A stretch of DNA of 64,000 nt from Psychroserpens damuponensis. GTDB lineage: Bacteria; Bacteroidota; Bacteroidia; Flavobacteriales; Flavobacteriaceae. Shown in pieces: positions 2,994 through 12,819 of the stretch. The number at the start of each line of letters is the position of its first letter. The first letter of the stretch is position 1. The notes beneath the pieces are model-generated. The model was given only the letters and a program-made list of their open reading frames with translations. It did not search any database and was not told the DNA's origin. The position numbers and the translations under genes were made by a program. The stretch is from NCBI RefSeq assembly GCF_000826655.1, contig NZ_JXJO01000017.1, positions 1-64,000 of the forward strand, given 5' to 3'.

Positions 2994-3133
2994 AATCAAT
3001 TCTCATGATAAAAAACAGATTCCAAACTGATTATAAACACATTATAAAGGCTAATTTTTATTAAATTCATAAAAATTAGTCGAAAATTAAACAAAATAGA
3101 CTCAAGTAATAAAATAATTTATAATTTCACAGC

Positions 3134-3199
3134 ATGATTATAATAACAAATAAAAACGAAAGACCCGCAAGTTTGCCTGTACGCAGACGACGTCGCTAA
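3134..3199 (+). CDS. Putative arginine leader peptide 1 (21 aa)
   Basis: An ATG-initiated 21-residue frame whose last residues read SLPVRRRRR before TAA. The five terminal codons are CGC AGA CGA CGT CGC, although AGA is the usual Arg codon nearby. A tract of the pathway's end product placed directly before a stop, in the untranslated leader of the arginine operon, is the signature of a leader peptide: ribosomes would stall there when charged tRNA-Arg is scarce. The first gene of the operon starts 264 bases later. No typical ribosome-binding site is visible, as is normal for this phylum. The peptide is inferred from sequence only. Confidence 0.72.
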   Translation: MIIITNKNERPASLPVRRRRR

Positions 3200-3248
3200 T
3201 GCTACTACTTGAAAAGCTATTTAGTTAATCCGTTTTTATTTTACAATC

Positions 3249-3344
3249 ATGAATTTTTTACCACAAACATTTTTCTTATTAAATAGAGTTATTAAAACTA
3301 ATAACACTGTTTTAGTACGTCCCAATTTTCGCCGTCGCCCTTAG
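3249..3344 (+). CDS. Putative arginine leader peptide 2 (31 aa)
   Basis: A second ATG-initiated small frame, 31 residues, ending VLVRPNFRRRP and TAG. Five of its six arginines sit after residue 20, and the last four Arg codons are CGT, CGC, CGT and CGC. It lies 49 bases after leader peptide 1 and 119 bases before the GNAT gene. Its stop codon overlaps one arm of a stem that can form in two mutually exclusive ways (3339-3385). It could be a second sensing element in tandem, or the part that couples ribosome position to RNA folding. It is less striking than leader 1 and could still be chance, but two Arg-rich frames in one arginine leader make that unlikely. Confidence 0.55.
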   Translation: MNFLPQTFFLLNRVIKTNNTVLVRPNFRRRP

Positions 3345-3385
3345 GGTGTATATCTCTTTATAGAACTAAGGTGAGTCCAGTTCTA
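3339..3385 (+). promoter_or_regulatory. Mutually exclusive stems in the arginine operon leader
   Basis: CCTTAG (3339-3344, overlapping the stop of leader 2) is complementary to CTAAGG (3366-3371). TAGAACT (3361-3367) is complementary to AGTTCTA (3379-3385). CTAAGG overlaps TAGAACT by two bases, so both stems cannot form together, as expected of an attenuator or a start-occluding switch. There is no T-run after the second stem, so the readout may not be transcription termination. A weak TTCC...GGAA inverted repeat follows at 3400-3417. Confidence 0.4.
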
Positions 3386-3463: not shown

Positions 3464-4102
3464 ATGAAAATTGTCATTGCTAATAAATCACATAGCATAT
3501 ACGCAGAAACCATATGCAACACCATTGCAGATGCCGCACAGGTAAGAGGTACTGGTATTGCAAAGCGTAAACCTGGATATATCATTTCTAAGATGGAAAA
3601 TGGCAATGCGGTTATTGCACTAGATGATGACAAGTTTGCTGGATTTTGCTACATCGAACAATGGAGTCACGGCAAATTTGTTGCTAATTCTGGTCTAATC
3701 GTCCATCCAGATTTTAGAAATTTAGGACTAGCAAAAAAAATCAAGAAGGTCATTTTTAAACATTCTAGAAGCAAATTCCCTAACGCTAAAGTATTCAGTA
3801 TCACAACAGGTTTAGCCGTTATGAAAATGAATAGCGATTTAGGCTACAAACCTGTTACGTTTTCAGAATTAACCGATGATCAATCCTTTTGGAACGGTTG
3901 TCAAACCTGTAAAAACTTTGATGTCTTAACAAGAACAGAACAAAAAATGTGCTTATGCACTGGCATGTTATACGATCCTAATAAAAAAGAAAACTTAAAG
4001 CCAAAAGAACACAATTACGACAAAAAAGCATGGACCAGATTGAAAAACCTAAAACAAACTATGTTCCTAAAAAAGGACAAAAAAGATGGACCGAGCACTT
4101 AA
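3464..4102 (+). CDS. GNAT acyltransferase with C-terminal Cys cluster, candidate N-acylglutamate synthase
   Basis: 212 residues. The GNAT acyl-CoA site is visible as HPDFRNLGLAKKI (81-93), preceded by the typical beta strand GLIV. After the fold, C146, C149, C163 and C165 form a CxxC...CxC group (GCQTCKNF...KMCLCTG) that could bind a metal. It is the first gene of the arginine operon, 41 bases before argG. No other glutamate N-acyltransferase (argA or argJ) is present here although every later step is, so I infer that it makes N-acetyl- or N-succinylglutamate. The fold is seen; the substrate is inference from context. Confidence 0.72.
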   Translation: MKIVIANKSHSIYAETICNTIADAAQVRGTGIAKRKPGYIISKMENGNAVIALDDDKFAGFCYIEQWSHGKFVANSGLIVHPDFRNLGLAKKIKKVIFKHSRSKFPNAKVFSITTGLAVMKMNSDLGYKPVTFSELTDDQSFWNGCQTCKNFDVLTRTEQKMCLCTGMLYDPNKKENLKPKEHNYDKKAWTRLKNLKQTMFLKKDKKDGPST

Positions 4103-4143: not shown

Positions 4144-5325
4144 ATGAATAAAAAATTAGTCATAGCATACAGTGGTGGTTTAGACACATCATACTGCGCA
4201 GTAAGTTTAAGTAAAGCTAGTTACGATGTACATGCTGTAAGTGTGAACACTGGTGGTTTTTCTGATGACGAAATTAAAACCATAGAAGACAATGCTTACA
4301 AAATGGGCGTTTCAACATATAAAAATATTGATGCCATTGCATCGTATTACGACAAAGTGATTAAGTATTTAATCTTCGGAAATGTGCTTAAAAACAACAC
4401 CTACCCTTTATCTGTAAGTGCAGAACGAATTATTCAAGCCATTGAGATTATTGAATATGCAAAAAGTATCGATGCCGAATATATAGCTCACGGAAGTACT
4501 GGAGCAGGAAATGACCAAGTGCGTTTCGATATGATTTTTCAAACCTTAGCACCAAACATCAAGATTATTACACCAATTAGAGACGGAAGCCTGAGCAGGC
4601 AACAAGAAATCGATTACTTAAAAGAAAACGGAATCAATATGTCTTGGGAAAAAGCAAAGTATTCTGTAAACAAAGGACTTTGGGGAACTAGTGTTGGTGG
4701 TGAAGAAACATTAACTTCAGAAAAACCTTTACCTGAATCTGCATACCCCTCTCAACTTAAAAACAAAGGAGAAGAAAAAGTCATTTTAACATTTGATAAA
4801 GGAGAACTAGTTGCCGTGAATGGTAAAGAAGATGTTTCAGAAAAAAACATAGAATTATTAAATAACCTAGCATGTGCTTATGCTATCGGAAGAGACTCTC
4901 ACGTTGGAGATACTATTGTTGGCATAAAAGGTCGCGTTGGTTTTGAAGCTGCAGCAGCTTTAATCATCATAAAAGCACACCATCTTTTAGAAAAGCACAC
5001 ACTTACAAAATGGCAATTGCAACACAAGGATTATATGTCTAATTTCTATGGTATGCATTTGCATGAAGGTCAATATTTAGATCCAGTGATGCGAGATATG
5101 GAAGCTTTTTTACAAAGTAGTCAGAGCAAGGTTTCGGGTGACGTATTTGTAACCTTGAAACCTTATCATTTCAATTTAGATGGCATTTCTTCTAAACACG
5201 ATTTAATGAGCACAAAATTTGGCAGCTATGGCGAAGACAACAAAGGCTGGACAGCAGACGAAGCTAAAGGATTTATTAAAATAGTTGGTAATCAGAATAA
5301 GATTTATCAACAAGTAAATAGTTAA
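4144..5325 (+). CDS. argG: Argininosuccinate synthase
   Basis: Joins citrulline and aspartate with ATP to make argininosuccinate. The N-type ATP pyrophosphatase loop AYSGGLDTS lies at residues 8-16, and the family block AIGRDSHVGDTIVGIKGRVGFEAA near residue 248. At 393 residues it is close to the usual 400. It sits second in the operon rather than beside argH, which closes it. The next gene begins 95 bases on, after a short repeat and a start-proximal hairpin. Confidence 0.96.
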   Translation: MNKKLVIAYSGGLDTSYCAVSLSKASYDVHAVSVNTGGFSDDEIKTIEDNAYKMGVSTYKNIDAIASYYDKVIKYLIFGNVLKNNTYPLSVSAERIIQAIEIIEYAKSIDAEYIAHGSTGAGNDQVRFDMIFQTLAPNIKIITPIRDGSLSRQQEIDYLKENGINMSWEKAKYSVNKGLWGTSVGGEETLTSEKPLPESAYPSQLKNKGEEKVILTFDKGELVAVNGKEDVSEKNIELLNNLACAYAIGRDSHVGDTIVGIKGRVGFEAAAALIIIKAHHLLEKHTLTKWQLQHKDYMSNFYGMHLHEGQYLDPVMRDMEAFLQSSQSKVSGDVFVTLKPYHFNLDGISSKHDLMSTKFGSYGEDNKGWTADEAKGFIKIVGNQNKIYQQVNS

Positions 5326-5420: not shown

Positions 5421-6404
5421 ATGAAAAAATTAGAAATAGGAATCATTGGAGGAGCAGGCTATACAGCAGGAGAGTTAATTAGATTGCTGCTAAATCACCC
5501 AAAAGCAAACTTGAATTTTGTATTCAGCACATCTAATGCAGGCAACAAAATACATAACATACATAAAGATTTAATAGGCTCTACGGATTTAGACTTTACT
5601 AATGACATTAATTCAGATGTAGATGTATTATTTCTATGCTTAGGCCATGGAAATTCAACTGCTTTTTTAGAAAAAAACACATTTTCAAACGCTACTAAAA
5701 TCATTGACTTAAGTAACGACTTTAGATTAGTTGCCGACAAGAATTTTAATGAAAAAGATTTTATTTACGGCTTACCAGAACTAAACAAGACTCCGATTAA
5801 AAACGCAAATCACATCGCTAATCCAGGTTGTTTTGCTACAGCAATACAACTCGCATTATTGCCATTAGCAAATGCAAAAGTTTTACAAAACGATGTTCAT
5901 ATTAATGCTGTAACTGGTGCAACTGGAGCAGGAACATCATTATCTAAAACGACGCATTTTACTTGGAGAGATAATAACTTTTCGCATTATAAAGCTTTTA
6001 CACATCAGCATTTAGGAGAAATTAATCAGACTGTAAATCAGTTGCAGTCTTCTTTTAAATCAGACATCAACTTTATGCCAAATCGCGGTAATTTTTCAAG
6101 AGGAATTTTCGCAACACTTTACACCAAATTTGACGGCACAATTGAAGAAGCAAAAATATTGTATCACAATTATTATAAAGATGCAGCATTTACGTTTGTT
6201 TCAGACGAAGACATTCATTTAAAACAAGTGGTAAACACTAACAAATGCATTCTTCATTTACACAAACACGAAGATAAATTACTAGTAACAAGTATCATTG
6301 ATAATTTACTAAAAGGAGCATCAGGTCAAGCGATTCAAAACATGAATTTAATGCATGAGTTTGAAGAAACCGAAGGGTTAAAATTAAAGGCGAATTACTT
6401 TTAA
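5421..6404 (+). CDS. argC: N-acyl-gamma-glutamyl-phosphate reductase
   Basis: NADPH-dependent reduction of N-acylglutamyl phosphate to the semialdehyde. The N-terminal dinucleotide fold GGAGYTAGEL starts at residue 10 and the catalytic cysteine is C137 in HIANPGCFAT. The 327 residues fit the short (type 2-like) ArgC. A downstream HFTWRDNNFSHYKAF block is typical of the family. Whether the acyl group is acetyl or succinyl cannot be told from this protein. proC follows after 88 bases. Confidence 0.94.
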   Translation: MKKLEIGIIGGAGYTAGELIRLLLNHPKANLNFVFSTSNAGNKIHNIHKDLIGSTDLDFTNDINSDVDVLFLCLGHGNSTAFLEKNTFSNATKIIDLSNDFRLVADKNFNEKDFIYGLPELNKTPIKNANHIANPGCFATAIQLALLPLANAKVLQNDVHINAVTGATGAGTSLSKTTHFTWRDNNFSHYKAFTHQHLGEINQTVNQLQSSFKSDINFMPNRGNFSRGIFATLYTKFDGTIEEAKILYHNYYKDAAFTFVSDEDIHLKQVVNTNKCILHLHKHEDKLLVTSIIDNLLKGASGQAIQNMNLMHEFEETEGLKLKANYF

Positions 6405-6492: not shown

Positions 6493-7293
6493 ATGAAAAT
6501 AGCAATCATAGGAACAGGAAATTTAGGAAAGTCCATCGCAAAAGGACTCATCACTAACAACGCTATAACCACATTATACTTAACCAAACGGAATTTGGAC
6601 GACATTCAAGATTTAGAAGGTTATAAAAATGTGCATTTAACAACCGATAATGCCGTAGCAGTTAAAAATTCAGATATTTTAATATTTGCTATTCAACCAA
6701 GACAATTTGAGCAAATTTTAAATGACATAAACCCTTTACTAACAGAAAATCATGTTTTAATTAGCACAATTACTGGCTTTTTAATTCCGAAGATTGAAGA
6801 AATCGTTGGATCTAATCAATTCATCATTAGAGCAATGCCAAACACTGCAATCGCAGTCGGTAAATCCATGACTTGCATGTGTAGCAACGCACAAGGTGCA
6901 AAACGCCTAAAAATCGCAGAAGCCATTTTCAATAGATTAGGACACACATTAGTCATACCAGAATCGCAAATGCAAGCTGCAACGGTGGTTTGTGCTAGCG
7001 GAATTGCATTTTGGATGCGACTGATTCGTGCAACAACACAAGCTGCAATTCAGTTAGGTTTTGATGCTAATGAAGCACAAGAATTAGCGATGTATACAAG
7101 TGAAGGTGCTGCGAGTTTATTAATTACAAACGGCAACCATCCAGAAGAAGAAATCGATAGAGTAACCACACCAAAAGGTTGCACTATTGAAGGTTTAAAT
7201 GAAATGGAACACAAAGGATTGAGTTCGTCTTTAATTCAAGGAATGGTGGCTTCTTTCAATAAGATTAATAACATTAAAAAAGAGCAAATTTAA
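6493..7293 (+). CDS. proC: Pyrroline-5-carboxylate reductase
   Basis: Reduces pyrroline-5-carboxylate to proline. The Rossmann motif GTGNLG is at residues 7-12 and the family signature VTTPKGCTIEGLNEME is near the C terminus, at about the expected 266 residues. It lies between argC and argD on the same strand with short gaps, so it is probably co-transcribed with arginine synthesis. A role on a glutamate-semialdehyde branch is possible, but no proA or proB is present here. Confidence 0.93.
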   Translation: MKIAIIGTGNLGKSIAKGLITNNAITTLYLTKRNLDDIQDLEGYKNVHLTTDNAVAVKNSDILIFAIQPRQFEQILNDINPLLTENHVLISTITGFLIPKIEEIVGSNQFIIRAMPNTAIAVGKSMTCMCSNAQGAKRLKIAEAIFNRLGHTLVIPESQMQAATVVCASGIAFWMRLIRATTQAAIQLGFDANEAQELAMYTSEGAASLLITNGNHPEEEIDRVTTPKGCTIEGLNEMEHKGLSSSLIQGMVASFNKINNIKKEQI

Positions 7294-7385: not shown

Positions 7386-8513
7386 ATGAGTTTATTTAAT
7401 GTTTATCCACTCTTCGACATTACGCCAGTAAGCGCAAAAGGCATTCACGTTTACGATGATAATAATGTTGAATATCTAGATTTATATGGTGGACACGCCG
7501 TAATATCTATTGGACATTCGCATCCAAAATATGTGAGTGCGATTTCTAATCAAGTTGAAAAACTAGGCTTCTATAGCAACGCGATTCAAAATCCGTTGCA
7601 AGTTGAATTAGCAGATAAATTAGAAACACTTTCTGGCTGTAAAGATTATCAATTATTTTTATGTAATTCTGGTGCAGAAGCCAATGAGAATGCTTTAAAA
7701 CTAGCATCATTTCATAATGGCAAAACCAAAGTTTTATCATTTAAAAATTCATTTCATGGTAGAACGTCTGCTGCTGTTGCAGTAACCGACAATCCTAAAA
7801 TTGTTGCACCAATAAACACACAACAAGACGTTGATTTTTTAGAATTAGGTGATTTAGAAGCGGTTGAAATCATTTTAAAACAAGGCGAAACTTGTGCTAT
7901 CATTATTGAATTCATTCAAGGTGTTGGTGGTTTAGACCAAAGCACAACGGAATTCTATCAAGGACTAGGCAAGCTTTGCAAACAACACAACACTGCTTTA
8001 ATTGCTGATGAAGTACAATCGGGATTTGGAAGAACTGGTGACTTTTTCGCTTTTCAAAAACACAATATCACACCAGATATTATTTCTATTGCTAAAGGCA
8101 TGGGAAATGGATTTCCGGTTGGAGGCATTTTAATTCATCCTTCAATTAAAGCGTCTTTTGGATTATTAGGAACAACTTTTGGCGGCAATCATTTAGCATG
8201 TGCTGCCACACTTTCTGTTTTAGAAGTTTTAGAAGAAGAACAGCTAATGGAAAACGCTAAAACTATGTCAGCCTACTTTCAAGACAAAGCAAAGTCTTTA
8301 CCAAATTTAAAATCTATAAAAGGTCGCGGTTTAATGCTAGGCTTAGAGTTTGATTTCCCAATCTCAGACTTACGGAAAAAGTTGATTTTTGACCATCACA
8401 TATTTACAGGAAGCGCAAAGAATCCTAATTTATTAAGAATTCTTCCACCATTAACGATTCAAAAAAAGCACATTGATTTATTTTTTGAGGCGTTAGAAAT
8501 AGAATTAGTTTAA
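7386..8513 (+). CDS. argD: Acylornithine aminotransferase (class III PLP)
   Basis: Transfers an amino group from glutamate to N-acylglutamate semialdehyde. Family motifs are LCNSGAEANENALKLA (near residue 96), FHGRT (near 124), the aspartate in LIADEVQSGFGRTG (near 210) and the PLP lysine in SIAKGMGNGFPVGG (near 238). It has 375 residues, slightly short for the family but complete. Flanked by proC and argF' in the operon, so arginine synthesis rather than ornithine or GABA catabolism is the likely role. Confidence 0.93.
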   Translation: MSLFNVYPLFDITPVSAKGIHVYDDNNVEYLDLYGGHAVISIGHSHPKYVSAISNQVEKLGFYSNAIQNPLQVELADKLETLSGCKDYQLFLCNSGAEANENALKLASFHNGKTKVLSFKNSFHGRTSAAVAVTDNPKIVAPINTQQDVDFLELGDLEAVEIILKQGETCAIIIEFIQGVGGLDQSTTEFYQGLGKLCKQHNTALIADEVQSGFGRTGDFFAFQKHNITPDIISIAKGMGNGFPVGGILIHPSIKASFGLLGTTFGGNHLACAATLSVLEVLEEEQLMENAKTMSAYFQDKAKSLPNLKSIKGRGLMLGLEFDFPISDLRKKLIFDHHIFTGSAKNPNLLRILPPLTIQKKHIDLFFEALEIELV

Positions 8514-8538: not shown

Positions 8539-8546
8539 AAGTGAAC

Positions 8547-9482
8547 ATGAAAAATTACACCAAAATAAAGGATATTATCAATCTACCAGAAACGATTAAA
8601 GACGCCATTTTATTAAAAATGAATCCTTTTGAATTTCAAGATTTAGGAAAACACAAAACCTTAGTGATGCTCTTTTTTAATTCGAGTTTAAGAACCCGTT
8701 TAAGTACCGAAAAAGCAGCAAAAAACTTAGGTATGGAAGTCATGATTTTAAACATCAACGACGCTTGGAATCTAGAGTTTGAAGATGGCACCATTATGAA
8801 TATGGACAAATCTGAACACATCAAAGAAGCCGCACAAGTGATTTCTCAATATGCAGATATTATTGCTGTAAGAGCTTTTCCAACGTTACAAGATAAAGCT
8901 AAAGACGAATCGGAATACATTCTCAATAACTTAAAAAAACATGCAACAGTGCCAATTGTAAACATGGAAAGCGCAACAGCGCATCCTTTACAAGCCTTAG
9001 CTGATGCGATTACAATAACTGAACTCACTGAGAAAGCAAAACCAAAAGTCGTATTGTCCTGGGCACCACATCCTAAAGCATTGCCACAAGCGGTTGCAAA
9101 TTCGTTTATAGAAATGATTCAAAATATGGATGTTGATTTAACAATCACACATCCTGAAGGTTATGAGTTAAGTGAAGCAATCACTAAAAACACACCAATT
9201 AATTACAACCAAGAAGAAGCCTTAAAAGATGCCGATTTTGTGTACACCAAAAACTGGAGTAGCTATAATAACTACGGAAAAGTGCTTAGTCAAGATAATA
9301 GCTGGATGGTTACAAAAGCTAAATTAGGACATGCAAAATTTATGCATTGTTTACCAGTAAGAAGAAATGTAGTTGTAGAAGATACTGTTTTAGATAGCGA
9401 CCAATCTGTGGTGATACAACAAGCAAATAATAGAACTTATGCAGCTCAGATTGTGTTGAAGCAGATTTTGGAAGATTTATAA
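8547..9482 (+). CDS. argF': N-acylornithine carbamoyltransferase (ArgF' type)
   Basis: Carbamoylates N-acylornithine to N-acylcitrulline; Bacteroidota use this in place of ordinary ornithine transcarbamylase. The carbamoyl-phosphate site is FFNSSLRTRLST (43-54), with SATAHPLQALAD and the C-terminal MHCLPVRRN block. I chose the ATG at 8547; the GTG two codons upstream adds only GTG-AAC and touches the hairpin. By memory-based alignment the specificity residue (Pro in Bacteroides N-succinyl enzymes, Glu in Xanthomonas N-acetyl enzymes) falls on Ser89 in MDKSEH, so the acyl group is unclear. The length of 311 residues is normal. Confidence 0.93.
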   Translation: MKNYTKIKDIINLPETIKDAILLKMNPFEFQDLGKHKTLVMLFFNSSLRTRLSTEKAAKNLGMEVMILNINDAWNLEFEDGTIMNMDKSEHIKEAAQVISQYADIIAVRAFPTLQDKAKDESEYILNNLKKHATVPIVNMESATAHPLQALADAITITELTEKAKPKVVLSWAPHPKALPQAVANSFIEMIQNMDVDLTITHPEGYELSEAITKNTPINYNQEEALKDADFVYTKNWSSYNNYGKVLSQDNSWMVTKAKLGHAKFMHCLPVRRNVVVEDTVLDSDQSVVIQQANNRTYAAQIVLKQILEDL

Positions 9483-9558: not shown

Positions 9559-10335
9559 ATGAAAACAATAAAAGTCATAAAAATAGGTGGAAACATCATC
9601 GATAACAAAGAGGTCTTAGCTACATTTCTAAAAAGTTTTGCAACTATATCAGGCCCAAAAGTTTTGGTTCATGGAGGCGGAAAATTAGCCTCTAAATTAG
9701 CTAAACAGATGAATATTCCTGTAAAAATGAATGAGGGCAGACGCATCACAGATGCCGAGACTCTAGACATTATCACTATGGTTTATGCAGGCAAAATCAA
9801 TAAAAATATTGTAGCGCAATTACAAGCTAATAATTGCAATGCAATTGGATTTTCTGGAGCAGACGGAAATACTATTGTTTCGATAAAAAGACCTATTAAA
9901 ACCATCGATTACGGTTTTGCTGGTGATGTAAAAAAAGTAAATACAAAAGCTTTAGAGGTTTTATTAAATAATACCATCACACCTGTATTTTGCGCCATTA
10001 CTCATGATACAAACGGACAATTACTAAACACAAATGCAGATACTATTGCTTCGGAATTAGCCATTGGGTTATCATCAATTTTCAACACAGAATTATATTA
10101 TTGCTTCGAAAAAAATGGTGTGCTCAAAGATATAGAGTATGAAGATTCAGTAATTGAAAACATCAACACTAAAAGCTATAAAACACTAAAGGAAAACAAC
10201 ATTATATTCGAAGGTATGCTACCTAAACTAAACAACTGTTTTCATGCTATAAATAAAAACGTTCAAAAAGTTTGTATTGGCAAATCAGATATGCTTTTCA
10301 ACTTCAATAATAAACATACAACCATTACAAAATGA
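9559..10335 (+). CDS. argB: N-acylglutamate kinase
   Basis: Phosphorylates N-acylglutamate, the second step of the pathway. The amino-acid-kinase fold shows KIGGNIID near the start, VHGGGKLASKLAKQM (near residue 38) and the C-terminal NTNADTIASELAIGL block. At 258 residues it is a standard unfused kinase with no N-terminal arginine-sensing extension, so feedback by arginine on this enzyme may be weak. It overlaps argE by four bases (ATGA), implying translational coupling. Confidence 0.93.
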   Translation: MKTIKVIKIGGNIIDNKEVLATFLKSFATISGPKVLVHGGGKLASKLAKQMNIPVKMNEGRRITDAETLDIITMVYAGKINKNIVAQLQANNCNAIGFSGADGNTIVSIKRPIKTIDYGFAGDVKKVNTKALEVLLNNTITPVFCAITHDTNGQLLNTNADTIASELAIGLSSIFNTELYYCFEKNGVLKDIEYEDSVIENINTKSYKTLKENNIIFEGMLPKLNNCFHAINKNVQKVCIGKSDMLFNFNNKHTTITK

Positions 10336-11402
10336 TTAAAAAACTCACAACAGAAGCGATTGCTTTACTAAAGCAACTCATAGAAACACAGTCATTTTCT
10401 TCAGAAGAAAACAATACAGCATTGCTTATTGAAGATTGGTTTACAACACACCATGTGCCATTTAAGAGGAATAATCACAACATTTGGGCAACCAACAAAT
10501 ATTTTGACGAGAGTAGGCCAACACTACTCTTAAACTCACATCACGATACAGTGAAACCAAATAATGGCTACACCAAAGACCCATTTAAAGCCATAGTTGA
10601 AGATGGAAAATTATACGGATTAGGCAGTAATGATGCTGGTGGCTGTTTAGTCTCTTTGATTGCTACGTTCACGTATTTTTATAACAAAAAAGACCTCAAC
10701 TACAACTTAGTGATTGTTGCGTCTGCCGAAGAAGAAAGCAGTGGGCCAAACGGATTAAATAGCATGTTACCAATCATCCCAAAAATTGATGTTGCTATTG
10801 TTGGCGAACCAACTTTAATGAATTTAGCAGTTGCCGAAAAAGGCTTAGTCGTTTTTGATGCCAAAGTAAAAGGAACAGCTAGTCACGCTGCACATCCAAA
10901 TAATGACAATTCAATCTATAACACTATTGATGTTTTAAAATGGTTTCAAGAGTATAAATTTGAAAGGAAGTCACCAGTTTTAGGCGATGTAAAAATGACG
11001 GTTACGCAAATTAATGCAGGCAGACAACACAATGCTGTTCCTGCAGAAGTAGATTTAGTGATTGATGTACGTGTAAATGACAAATATTCAAATCAGGAAA
11101 TTTCAGAAATACTAACAAAAAAATCACATTGCACTAGTATTACAGCTCGTAGCCTACGATTAAATTCATCGTCAATTTCTAATAATCATGAACTCGTAAA
11201 GGCAGGAATTGAATTAGGAAGAGAAACTTACGGATCGCCAACACTTTCAGACCAATCTGTTCTAACTTGTCAGTCGTTAAAATTAGGACCTGGAGATAGC
11301 ACGCGTTCGCATACAGCAGATGAGTTTATTTATTTAGCTGAAATTGAGGAAGGTGTTGATTTGTATATTAAGTTACTAGAGAAGGTATTGTTAAAAAGAT
11401 AA
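10332..11402 (+). CDS. argE: M20 deacylase, N-acylornithine/N-acylcitrulline type
   Basis: Zinc aminoacylase removing the acyl group in arginine synthesis. M20 metal and catalytic motifs are LLNSHHDTVKP (about 70-80), GSNDAGG (about 98), ASAEEESSG (about 131) and the late histidine in RSHTADEF. The start overlaps argB's stop. In organisms with ArgF', the real substrate is N-acylcitrulline, since carbamoylation precedes deacylation; that is inference from context. At 356 residues it is typical. A 142-base gap with an inverted repeat separates it from argH. Confidence 0.9.
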   Translation: MIKKLTTEAIALLKQLIETQSFSSEENNTALLIEDWFTTHHVPFKRNNHNIWATNKYFDESRPTLLLNSHHDTVKPNNGYTKDPFKAIVEDGKLYGLGSNDAGGCLVSLIATFTYFYNKKDLNYNLVIVASAEEESSGPNGLNSMLPIIPKIDVAIVGEPTLMNLAVAEKGLVVFDAKVKGTASHAAHPNNDNSIYNTIDVLKWFQEYKFERKSPVLGDVKMTVTQINAGRQHNAVPAEVDLVIDVRVNDKYSNQEISEILTKKSHCTSITARSLRLNSSSISNNHELVKAGIELGRETYGSPTLSDQSVLTCQSLKLGPGDSTRSHTADEFIYLAEIEEGVDLYIKLLEKVLLKR

Positions 11403-11544: not shown

Positions 11545-12819
11545 ATGAAATTATGGGACAAAGGGTTTTCAATAGATAAAAAAATAGAATTATTTACCGT
11601 TGGTAACGACAGAGAAATAGACATGCATATCGCAAAACATGACGTACAAGCGTCTTTAGCACATGCTATAATGCTAGAGTCAATTGGTATTATTTCTTCG
11701 GAAGAATTAACTCAACTAAAATCAGGATTAAAAATTTTAGCAGAATCTATAGAAGCTAGAACATTTATAATTGAAGATACTTTTGAAGATGTACATTCTA
11801 AAATTGAACACGAGCTTACAAAAACTCTAGGTGACGTTGGAAAGAAAATCCACACGGCACGTTCTAGAAATGACCAAGTTTTAGTGGCACTTCAACTTTA
11901 CTATAAAGAGAACCTTCAAATCATAAACGACAAAACGAAGACGTTTTTTGATACACTTTTAGGTCTTTCTGAAACTCACAAAAGCAAACTTCTACCTGGT
12001 TACACACATTTACAAGTTGCTATGCCATCATCCTTCGGATTATGGTTTTCTGCCTATGCCGAATTATTAATTGATGATGTTTATGTATTAAATGCTGTAT
12101 CAAAAATCACAGACCAAAATGTTTTAGGTTCGGCTGCTGGTTACGGAAGCTCATTTCCTATTGATAGAGCTATTACGACTAAAGAATTAGGCTTCTCGAC
12201 TTTAAAATACAATGTAGTTGCTGCTCAATTGAGTAGAGGAAAAAGTGAACGTGCAATTGCAAGTGCATTAGGCGGCTTATGTAATACCATGGCACGTTTT
12301 GCGATGGATATTTGCTTATATATGAGTCAGAATTTTGCATTTATTACGTTTCCTGACGAATTAACAACCGGAAGTAGTATTATGCCACACAAAAAGAATC
12401 CTGATGTGTTTGAATTAATTAGAGGCAAGTGTAATAAAATTCAAGCTTTACATTCTGAAATGTTACTCATCACCAACAATTTACCAAGTGGTTACCATAG
12501 AGATTTTCAATTATTGAAAGAGAATATTATCAATGCTTTTGAAGATGTTAAAGATATTTTAGATATTTTTAATTATTCCATCCAACAAATCATTGTGAAA
12601 GATATTGACCTCAACGATGAAAAATATCAATACTTATTTACGGTTGACAGCATAAACAATTTGGTAGTTGATGGCATGAGTTTTAGAGACGCCTATCAAA
12701 AAATTGGAAATCAAGTACAAACCGGAACATATCAACCCGATTTAGGCAAAGAACATTCACATATTGGAAGTATTCATAATTTATGTTTGGATGATATTCG
12801 AGCTAAGTTTCCGAAGTAA
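11545..12819 (+). CDS. argH: Argininosuccinate lyase
   Basis: Splits argininosuccinate to arginine and fumarate, closing the pathway. The fumarase/aspartase superfamily signature GSSIMPHKKNPDVFELIRGK is near residue 279 and TARSRNDQV near 107. It has 424 residues, within the family range, although the C-terminal domain is short. It is the last gene of the operon and converges with gltD; a shared hairpin and an A17 tract begin at its stop codon. Confidence 0.95.
   Translation: MKLWDKGFSIDKKIELFTVGNDREIDMHIAKHDVQASLAHAIMLESIGIISSEELTQLKSGLKILAESIEARTFIIEDTFEDVHSKIEHELTKTLGDVGKKIHTARSRNDQVLVALQLYYKENLQIINDKTKTFFDTLLGLSETHKSKLLPGYTHLQVAMPSSFGLWFSAYAELLIDDVYVLNAVSKITDQNVLGSAAGYGSSFPIDRAITTKELGFSTLKYNVVAAQLSRGKSERAIASALGGLCNTMARFAMDICLYMSQNFAFITFPDELTTGSSIMPHKKNPDVFELIRGKCNKIQALHSEMLLITNNLPSGYHRDFQLLKENIINAFEDVKDILDIFNYSIQQIIVKDIDLNDEKYQYLFTVDSINNLVVDGMSFRDAYQKIGNQVQTGTYQPDLGKEHSHIGSIHNLCLDDIRAKFPK

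Follow-up and report, generated by a model that had tools for sequence, protein, structure and literature searches.

The usual assumption is that ArgR/AhrC controls arginine synthesis. The closest described systems to the arginine leader reported here are leader peptides. In his-type attenuators, including those of the his genes of Flavobacteriaceae, a short frame that repeats the regulated codon several times in succession stands directly before its own operon, as it does here. Alike too is orf34/speFL before speF of Salmonella, where consecutive Arg codons sense arginine and decide the fate of the mRNA, with a hairpin at and just after the stop codon and with Rho involved in the speF case (PMC6386406). 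The leader peptide rbfL of Staphylococcus aureus is likewise reported to sense arginine through its Arg codons (PMC13009471). ErmBL and ErmBL2 form a pair of leader peptides ahead of a single regulated gene (PMC8274638). The Cys leader peptides of Mycobacterium place a codon run before an amino-acid operon with no obvious terminator, and Rho is discussed by the authors (PMC1262725). Within the same family, leader-peptide attenuation has been proposed before amino-acid operons in a study of 5' cis-regulatory elements of Flavobacterium psychrophilum, the section concerned in its main text naming hisG and pheA among others and not arg (PMC9723704). Within the same phylum, small ORFs in long 5'-UTRs of Bacteroides thetaiotaomicron were likened by the authors to leader peptides, in a main text from which the word 'arginine' is absent (PMC7366714). 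In the main texts of the open-access literature, none of the matches listed concerned an arginine leader before a Bacteroidota arg operon.

In the window, that is, the whole 64 kb stretch of DNA that was analysed, the arg operon leader is the 470-base gap between ilvA, which ends at 2993, and the gene of a GNAT-family acyltransferase, which starts at 3464. The genes after the leader are in the order GNAT-argG-argC-proC-argD-argF'-argB-argE-argH (Table 1), and these matches agree with the preliminary description, which had placed an arginine-rich frame, here called LP1, before a GNAT-argG-...-argH operon. The same description had taken the leader to be otherwise gene-free, which does not stand given that a second Arg frame, LP2, and conserved hairpins are present. 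The GNAT protein matches no NCBIfam model at E <= 1e-10, and its nearest named relatives are Winogradskyella records with 90-93% identity; its role may be that of the N-acylglutamate synthase missing from the arginine pathway. It carries a Cys-rich C-terminal stretch, CQTCKNF...KMCLCTGMLYDP. The gene proC, which belongs to proline synthesis, sits within the arginine operon.

Table 1. Features of the arg leader and operon, with positions counted from the first letter of the window.
Feature	Position	Strand	Remarks
Putative promoter -7 box TAATTTCA	3122..3129	+	ends 4 nt before the LP1 ATG
LP1, leader peptide MIIITNKNERPASLPVRRRRR, then stop	3134..3199	+	ATG frame; called in relatives
Possible long-range stem, 5' arm AAATAAAAACG	3148..3158	+	inside LP1; 11 bp, perfect complement to 3231-3241
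Possible long-range stem, 3' arm CGTTTTTATTT	3231..3241	+	just 5' of the LP2 start
LP2, leader peptide MNFLPQTFFLLNRVIKTNNTVLVRPNFRRRP, then stop	3249..3344	+	ends ...VLVRPNFRRRP-stop; called in relatives
LP2, further Arg codon AGA	3285..3287	+	
H0, hairpin GTTATTA-AAAC-TAATAAC	3288..3305	+	within LP2, 5' of its C-terminal Arg codons
LP2, C-terminal Arg codon CGT	3318..3320	+	
LP2, C-terminal Arg codons CGC CGT CGC	3330..3338	+	
H1, hairpin CGCCC-TTA-GGGTG	3336..3348	+	encloses the LP2 stop codon; U-rich stretch follows
LP2 stop codon TAG	3342..3344	+	
U-rich linker, H1 to H2	3349..3360	+	56% T across Flavobacteriaceae leaders
H2, hairpin TAGAACT-AA-GG-TGAGT-CC-AGTTCTA	3361..3385	+	bulged A, loop UGNGU
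GNAT-family acyltransferase, first gene of the operon	3464..4102	+	Pfam PF00583
argG	4144..5325	+	best match, under curated cut-off
argC	5421..6404	+	TIGR01850, over cut-off
proC	6493..7293	+	TIGR00112, over cut-off
argD-type acetyl/succinylornithine transaminase	7386..8513	+	under cut-off
argF', N-acetylornithine carbamoyltransferase type	8541..9482	+	NF003384, score 284.7 vs cut-off 288
argB	9559..10335	+	TIGR00761, over cut-off
argE/dapE-type deacylase	10332..11402	+	under cut-off
argH	11545..12819	+	TIGR00838, over cut-off

A relative of the GNAT protein was found in 98 of 149 Flavobacteriaceae genomes, and for each of the 98 the DNA 5' of the gene was retrieved; this sample shares 8 loci with a set of 80 named relatives. 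LP1 is exactly the ATG frame of 21 codons that had been flagged, ending CGC AGA CGA CGT CGC TAA, and it stops 264 bases before the GNAT gene. Five Arg codons before a stop had been judged unlikely by chance, and a Met-containing frame ending in RRRRR-stop indeed occurred in 0 of 20,000 mononucleotide shuffles of the 470-base gap (RRR-stop in 3 of 5,000). Across all six frames of the window, RRR+(P)-stop tails are found only at 3182 (RRRRR-stop) and 3330 (RRRP-stop), both in this leader. LP1 was called in 43 of the 98 Flavobacteriaceae leaders, with an RR pair in 41 of these, and was uncalled in 55; among the named relatives it was called in 68 of 80. Upstream of its stop the frame has a median open length of 26 codons, compared with 14 and 18 in the other frames, and its mean open length is 29.3, to which the mean of one wrong frame, 26.5, comes close.

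Drift was followed in the window and 14 hand-picked close relatives from the set of 80, all sharing the LP1 type. The preliminary description had proposed to look for an Arg frame that persists while its surroundings drift, and this is what was found: pairwise identity is 0.95 for RRRRR-stop, 0.55 for the 5' flank and 0.47 for the spacer between H2 and GNAT. The values are also high for RRRP-stop with H1 (0.94), H2 (0.90), the start of GNAT (0.88) and the H1-H2 linker (0.87), and lower for the rest of LP1 (0.80-0.81), the first part of LP2 (0.74), and the promoter and spacer parts (0.69-0.73). The LP1 frame is real and appears functional.

LP2 is kept more widely than LP1. It was called in 88 of the 98 Flavobacteriaceae leaders, 70 of which end in RRP-stop and 73 in RP-stop, the 15 calls with other ends resting on a looser pattern, and in 67 of the 80 named relatives. 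The median length over which the LP2 frame stays open upstream of its stop is 42.5 codons, versus 15 and 16 in the other frames. Strong conservation is limited to the terminal RRP, for which H1 accounts in part; at positions -5 to -12 no residue is shared by more than 31 of 73 sequences. As far as the compared leaders tell, LP2 with the H1/H2 RNA element is the nearly universal part of the leader.

The Arg codons of the two frames differ from those of the genes. Overall, about 90% of the leader Arg codons are CGC or CGU, while genes favour AGA. In the last 9 codons of LP1, CGC and CGT make up 157 of 177 Arg codons, CGC alone contributing 133 (75%), and in the last 14 codons of LP2 they make up 339 of 368 (186 CGC, 153 CGT). 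The corresponding counts are 113 of 521 in the GNAT genes (39 CGC, with 258 AGA), 219 of 650 in upstream ORFs (76 CGC, 212 AGA) and, for long window ORFs, 207 of 548 (51 CGC, 235 AGA). The last of these bears out the earlier remark that several Arg codons of LP1 are not the locally preferred AGA, although the LP1 of the window is itself less pure, with CGC/CGU in 3 of its 5 Arg codons. The tRNA-Arg species found in this genome by ARAGORN, in a scan of 30 of 33 tRNA loci, have the anticodons ACG, TCG and TCT. By standard decoding CGC and CGU are both read by tRNA-Arg(ACG) and, given the species found, it follows that the ACG species reads these codons.

No match to ArgR (PF01316) was found in the genome itself or in the 149 Flavobacteriaceae genomes, while 9 of 14 control genomes match. 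The best reading of these comparisons is that ribosome-mediated control through Arg codons stands in place of ArgR. In a sample of the class Bacteroidia, ArgR was matched in 7 of 109 genomes, 6 of them over the cut-off. In all three class genomes with both ArgR and GNAT (loci L151, L152 and L155; genomes G328, G357 and G291) argR lies directly before GNAT, as if exchanged for the leader. Flavobacteriaceae genus g127 (L120, L121) has a GNAT-argG operon, with no Arg leader called and no R1 (see below) or ArgR match.

The consensus of the Bacteroidota promoter -7 box is TAnnTTTG. The box of the window has only 4 of 6 consensus letters, yet it is in register with its relatives. A TAnnTTTG-like box with at least 5 of 6 letters precedes the start codon of LP1 at 34 of 40 loci (the LP1 calls other than L048, L057 and L069), compared with 15% in a shuffled control, and the gap is 4-5 nt in 28 of these 34; a logo of 69 LP1 starts was taken as a further basis for the box. 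At LP2-only loci, at least 5 of 6 letters are found in 43 of 52 and the gap is 7 nt in 16 of 18 full matches, the chance rate there being above the 15% of the control because several starts in frame were considered. Where LP1 is present, a box with at least 5 of 6 letters precedes the internal LP2 in 17 of 36 loci and a full 6 of 6 in none. From the placement of the box across loci, the first leader peptide probably begins at, or a few bases from, the 5' end of the transcript. Given that the box lies only 4 nt from the LP1 ATG, the mRNA from which LP1 is translated may be leaderless.

The hairpins H0, H1 and H2 come out on top of a covariation scan of 152 distinct rows from 178 partly overlapping leaders, with the largest excess for H0. 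H0 appears in the fold of the window's leader, the overall energy of which is no better than that of shuffles (z -0.36). Its stem of at least 6 bp is present in 89% of 35 LP1-bearing loci versus 19% of shuffles, and it is weak in LP2-only loci (26% versus 11% of shuffles, n=50). In H1, 92.8% of cells are paired and a double change is seen in 3 of 5 pairs, in 1 or 2 sequences each, while the outermost pair is open in 27 of 93 leaders. An unbroken run of at least 5 pairs forms the outer stem of H2 in 86 of 89 leaders versus 5.4% of shuffles, and the inner GG/CC of H2 is 99.5% paired, with 5 double-changed cells. The tip of H2 is exactly AGGTGAGTCC in 59 of 98 leaders and GGTGNGTCC, summarised as GGUGNGUCC, in 84 of 98; the regular expression for H2 misses 8 of the 98 loci, and a looser motif is found in 78 of the 80 named relatives. 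By itself the tip AGGTGWGTCC occurs at three sites in the genome, one of which is this leader. That the Arg codons might pair with the tip of H2 was considered and dropped, given that L125, L132 and L158, judged by eye, did not fit.

Over the 13 pairs of H1 and H2 the covariation score is 0.273, in a covariance-model alignment of 93 leaders that is itself fitted to the model, compared with 0.137 in shuffles; 0 of 500 shuffles reach 0.273, and slid versions of the pairing give at most 0.151. RNAalifold on a 90-row MAFFT alignment returned only 2 pairs, probably because two registers of H2, with a bulge of 1 or 2 nt, blur the columns. Trained on 31 leaders, the covariance model R1 detects 93 of the 98 homologous leaders, the training rows included, from genomes under about 97 genus labels. 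In its own genome it has one strong site, with the next three at E values between 0.4 and 9.5. When 119 genomes sampled across the order were scanned, every one of the 9 strong matches, its own included, fell in Flavobacteriaceae; the weak matches of that sample are five in other families and one second site in a Flavobacteriaceae genome. None of the nine weak R1 matches has, in the roughly 1.5 kb around it, any gene of the window's arg operon. Six listed Flavobacteriaceae genomes, all of genus g127, gave no R1 match with the stricter filters that the order scan applied. Rfam gave no match in the window at the gathering score, either to a T-box or to another known element, and, at E up to 10 in 8 of the 98 leaders, four matches to eukaryote-type snoRNAs, all under the gathering score.

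A possible long-range stem would connect LP1 with the region just before LP2 (Table 1). In 38 loci, namely the LP1 calls other than L048, L057, L069, L011 and L022, its mean energy is -14.2 kcal/mol with the own partner, -11.6 with foreign partners and -8.8 in shuffles, and the own partner beats the median foreign partner in 32 of the 38. This stem could hide the initiation region of LP2.

Likeness to the his, thr and leu leaders had also been proposed. It holds insofar as a leader frame with Arg codons stands before the operon, and it breaks down at the terminator: over the whole leader, an intrinsic terminator was found in 6 of 98 arg leaders, compared with 29 of 30 hisG leaders with the same finder and the same span. 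From the LP2 stop to GNAT one was found in 3 of 88 leaders, all at H1 (shuffles 0.9%). No clear competing antiterminator, nor a helix hiding the GNAT start, emerged from the covariation scan of the 152 distinct leaders, and anchored folds of 79 of the 98 leaders, with a stalled or terminating ribosome masked, revealed no competing helix. Two marks of the trp/his attenuators are thus found, an Arg-rich leader frame and its place directly 5' of the arg operon, with the translation of LP1 and LP2 read from their conservation; an intrinsic terminator is mostly lacking, and no mutually exclusive antiterminator helix stood out. Given the few terminators and the absence of a clear competing helix, the leader may act like an amino-acid attenuator but lacks a defining feature of the trp/his type. 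In the his loci of the same family (L163-L192, 30 of 37 found loci read) His-rich leader frames were called in 21 of 30 hisG leaders, and classical his attenuation looks common in Flavobacteriaceae. The region after H2 is G-poor, with 6% G versus 13% before hisG; it was considered as a Rho site and, although it fits Rho loading, it is not counted as evidence.

The wider class was surveyed in 43 leaders from the 45 class genomes with a GNAT match (the own genome and one weak match being excluded), two of which are from Flavobacteriaceae genus g127. A frame no shorter than 14 codons that has at least 4 Arg among its last 12 is present in 14 of the 43, compared with 3.3% of shuffles and 5 of 43 on the reverse strand, and a terminator was found in 8 of the 43. 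L145 and L148, of one other Bacteroidia family, have a strong arg terminator, AGGCTTGCC...GGCAGGCCTTTTTT, and a stretch 3' of their Arg codons can pair alternatively with its 5' arm, so that by sequence these two are textbook attenuator layouts with a predicted terminator and antiterminator. In 8 of the 43 class leaders two G-C pairs close a URNGY loop, versus 2.7% of shuffles and 1 of 43 on the reverse strand; all eight have CC/GG instead of GG/CC, and among 120 permuted loop patterns URNGY tied for first place with a near-identical one. In L130, L144 and L158 a hairpin CTATTCC...GGAATAG or GGAGTAG, then TTTTT, lies 5' of the presumed Arg codons, perhaps within the leader frame.

Taken together, we consider it quite likely that the arg leader is a ribosome-mediated sensor of charged tRNA-Arg, made of the tandem LP1-LP2 and the hairpins H0, H1 and H2. 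The preliminary description had already ascribed control of the operon to Arg codons in a leader; the drift pattern, the choice of CGC/CGU and the lack of an ArgR match give this part comparative support, while LP2 and H1/H2 had been overlooked. From these features we infer the stall, its polarity, the output step and the roles of LP1 and H2. Transcription would begin at or beside the LP1 AUG, so that a ribosome could load at once. With tRNA-Arg(ACG) poorly charged, ribosomes would stall at the Arg codons of LP2, which are located between H0 and H1, and the stalled ribosome would hold both hairpins open and the operon would be expressed. With ample arginine the ribosome would reach the stop inside H1 and depart, the hairpins would form and expression would drop. 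LP1 would probably tune LP2 through the long-range stem, which would close or open LP2 initiation. Given that 85 of 88 leaders are without an intrinsic terminator, premature termination aided by Rho or by an H2-binding factor would be the likelier output, and regulation of translation or of mRNA stability would come next.

A more far-reaching version is put forward only tentatively, and we would sooner doubt it than rely on it. The tandem and probably leaderless Arg peptides would read one tRNA isoacceptor and be coupled to H2 in place of a terminator. A trans-acting factor would recognise H2 and decide the survival of the polymerase or the mRNA. The whole would serve Flavobacteriaceae generally instead of ArgR, and its loop type would be shared with some other Bacteroidia. 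In outline H2, where a bulged A and two G-C pairs lead up to a URNGY pentaloop, may resemble a phage coat-protein operator.

Other explanations make different use of the same features. If H1 and its U-rich tail were a weak intrinsic terminator, the leader would be an attenuator of the ordinary kind, except that its hairpin would be unusually short. H1 is scored as terminator-like by one finder (1 found versus 0.2 expected in shuffles), the linker is 56% T, and the three Flavobacteriaceae loci that pass the stricter finder all do so at H1; these are, however, only 3 of 88, with shuffles at 0.9% and the his leaders at 29 of 30, and the conservation of H2 would be left unexplained. We regard this as doubtful, with perhaps a minor chance of being right. 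The signal could also be inverted, with free arginine making the nascent LP2 (...RRP) arrest the ribosome at its stop, so that high arginine would be the stall signal. Proline before a stop is a slow context, and 70 of the 88 LP2 calls end in RRP-stop with the stop codon fixed in H1. The fungal arginine attenuator peptide is a precedent for arrest by arginine (PMC11550727). Such arrest seems unlikely here, given that LP2 drifts outside its terminal RRP, that the Pro and last Arg codons overlap the 5' arm of H1, that some loci without Pro-stop retain Arg and the hairpin (RRTFVRA-stop, RRTSVRV-stop), and that the strong preference for CGC/CGU points to a tRNA rather than to residues.

The covariation of H1 and H2, the H2 tip GGTGNGTCC in 84 of 98 leaders and the URNGY pentaloop with two G-C pairs in 8 of 43 class leaders would suit an RNA element that regulates alone, H1/H2 binding arginine or a protein and the frames being mere passengers. 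LP1, however, lies outside H1/H2 and has retained ends of the RRR type in which 75% of the Arg codons are CGC. The open stretch of the LP2 frame far exceeds that of the other frames, and class loci without an H2-like hairpin still carry Arg-rich frames. All this makes a lone RNA regulator very unlikely. That the whole is chance or an artefact of a single genome has only the shortness of the frame in its favour and can be practically dismissed, given the 0 of 20,000 shuffles and the recovery of the R1 element in 93 of 98 leaders, whose genomes carry about 97 genus labels.

In a Flavobacteriaceae sample of 149 genomes without an ArgR match, the arg operon has a conserved two- or one-peptide leader instead, which offers a clear test case for leader-peptide regulation without an intrinsic terminator. 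It raises the questions of why leaders choose the codons of one isoacceptor, which are largely avoided by genes, and of what reads a hairpin tip that is conserved over many genera. The model R1 is, in addition, a ready annotation tool for Flavobacteriaceae, a common marine family.

Compared with the known systems, the his leaders of Flavobacteriaceae have a terminator where the arg leaders carry H1/H2 instead. In Salmonella, orf34/speFL is one peptide, likened to the present LP1 and LP2 by description, that controls ornithine decarboxylase and so polyamines, whereas the arg leader precedes arginine synthesis; it senses with two consecutive rare codons, AGG and CGG at positions 12-13, in place of a terminal CGC/CGU run (PMC6386406). 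The peptide rbfL differs in that it acts on translation of a biofilm regulator, with AGA and AGG codons and stalling that represses (PMC13009471), and ErmBL/ErmBL2 in that they serve translational attenuation in response to erythromycin and not an amino-acid operon (PMC8274638). For the Cys leaders of Mycobacterium the authors report no conserved hairpins, while H1 and H2 are highly conserved here (PMC1262725). The arg leader is larger than the frame first flagged, and appears to be a two-peptide, terminator-poor variant of leader-peptide control.
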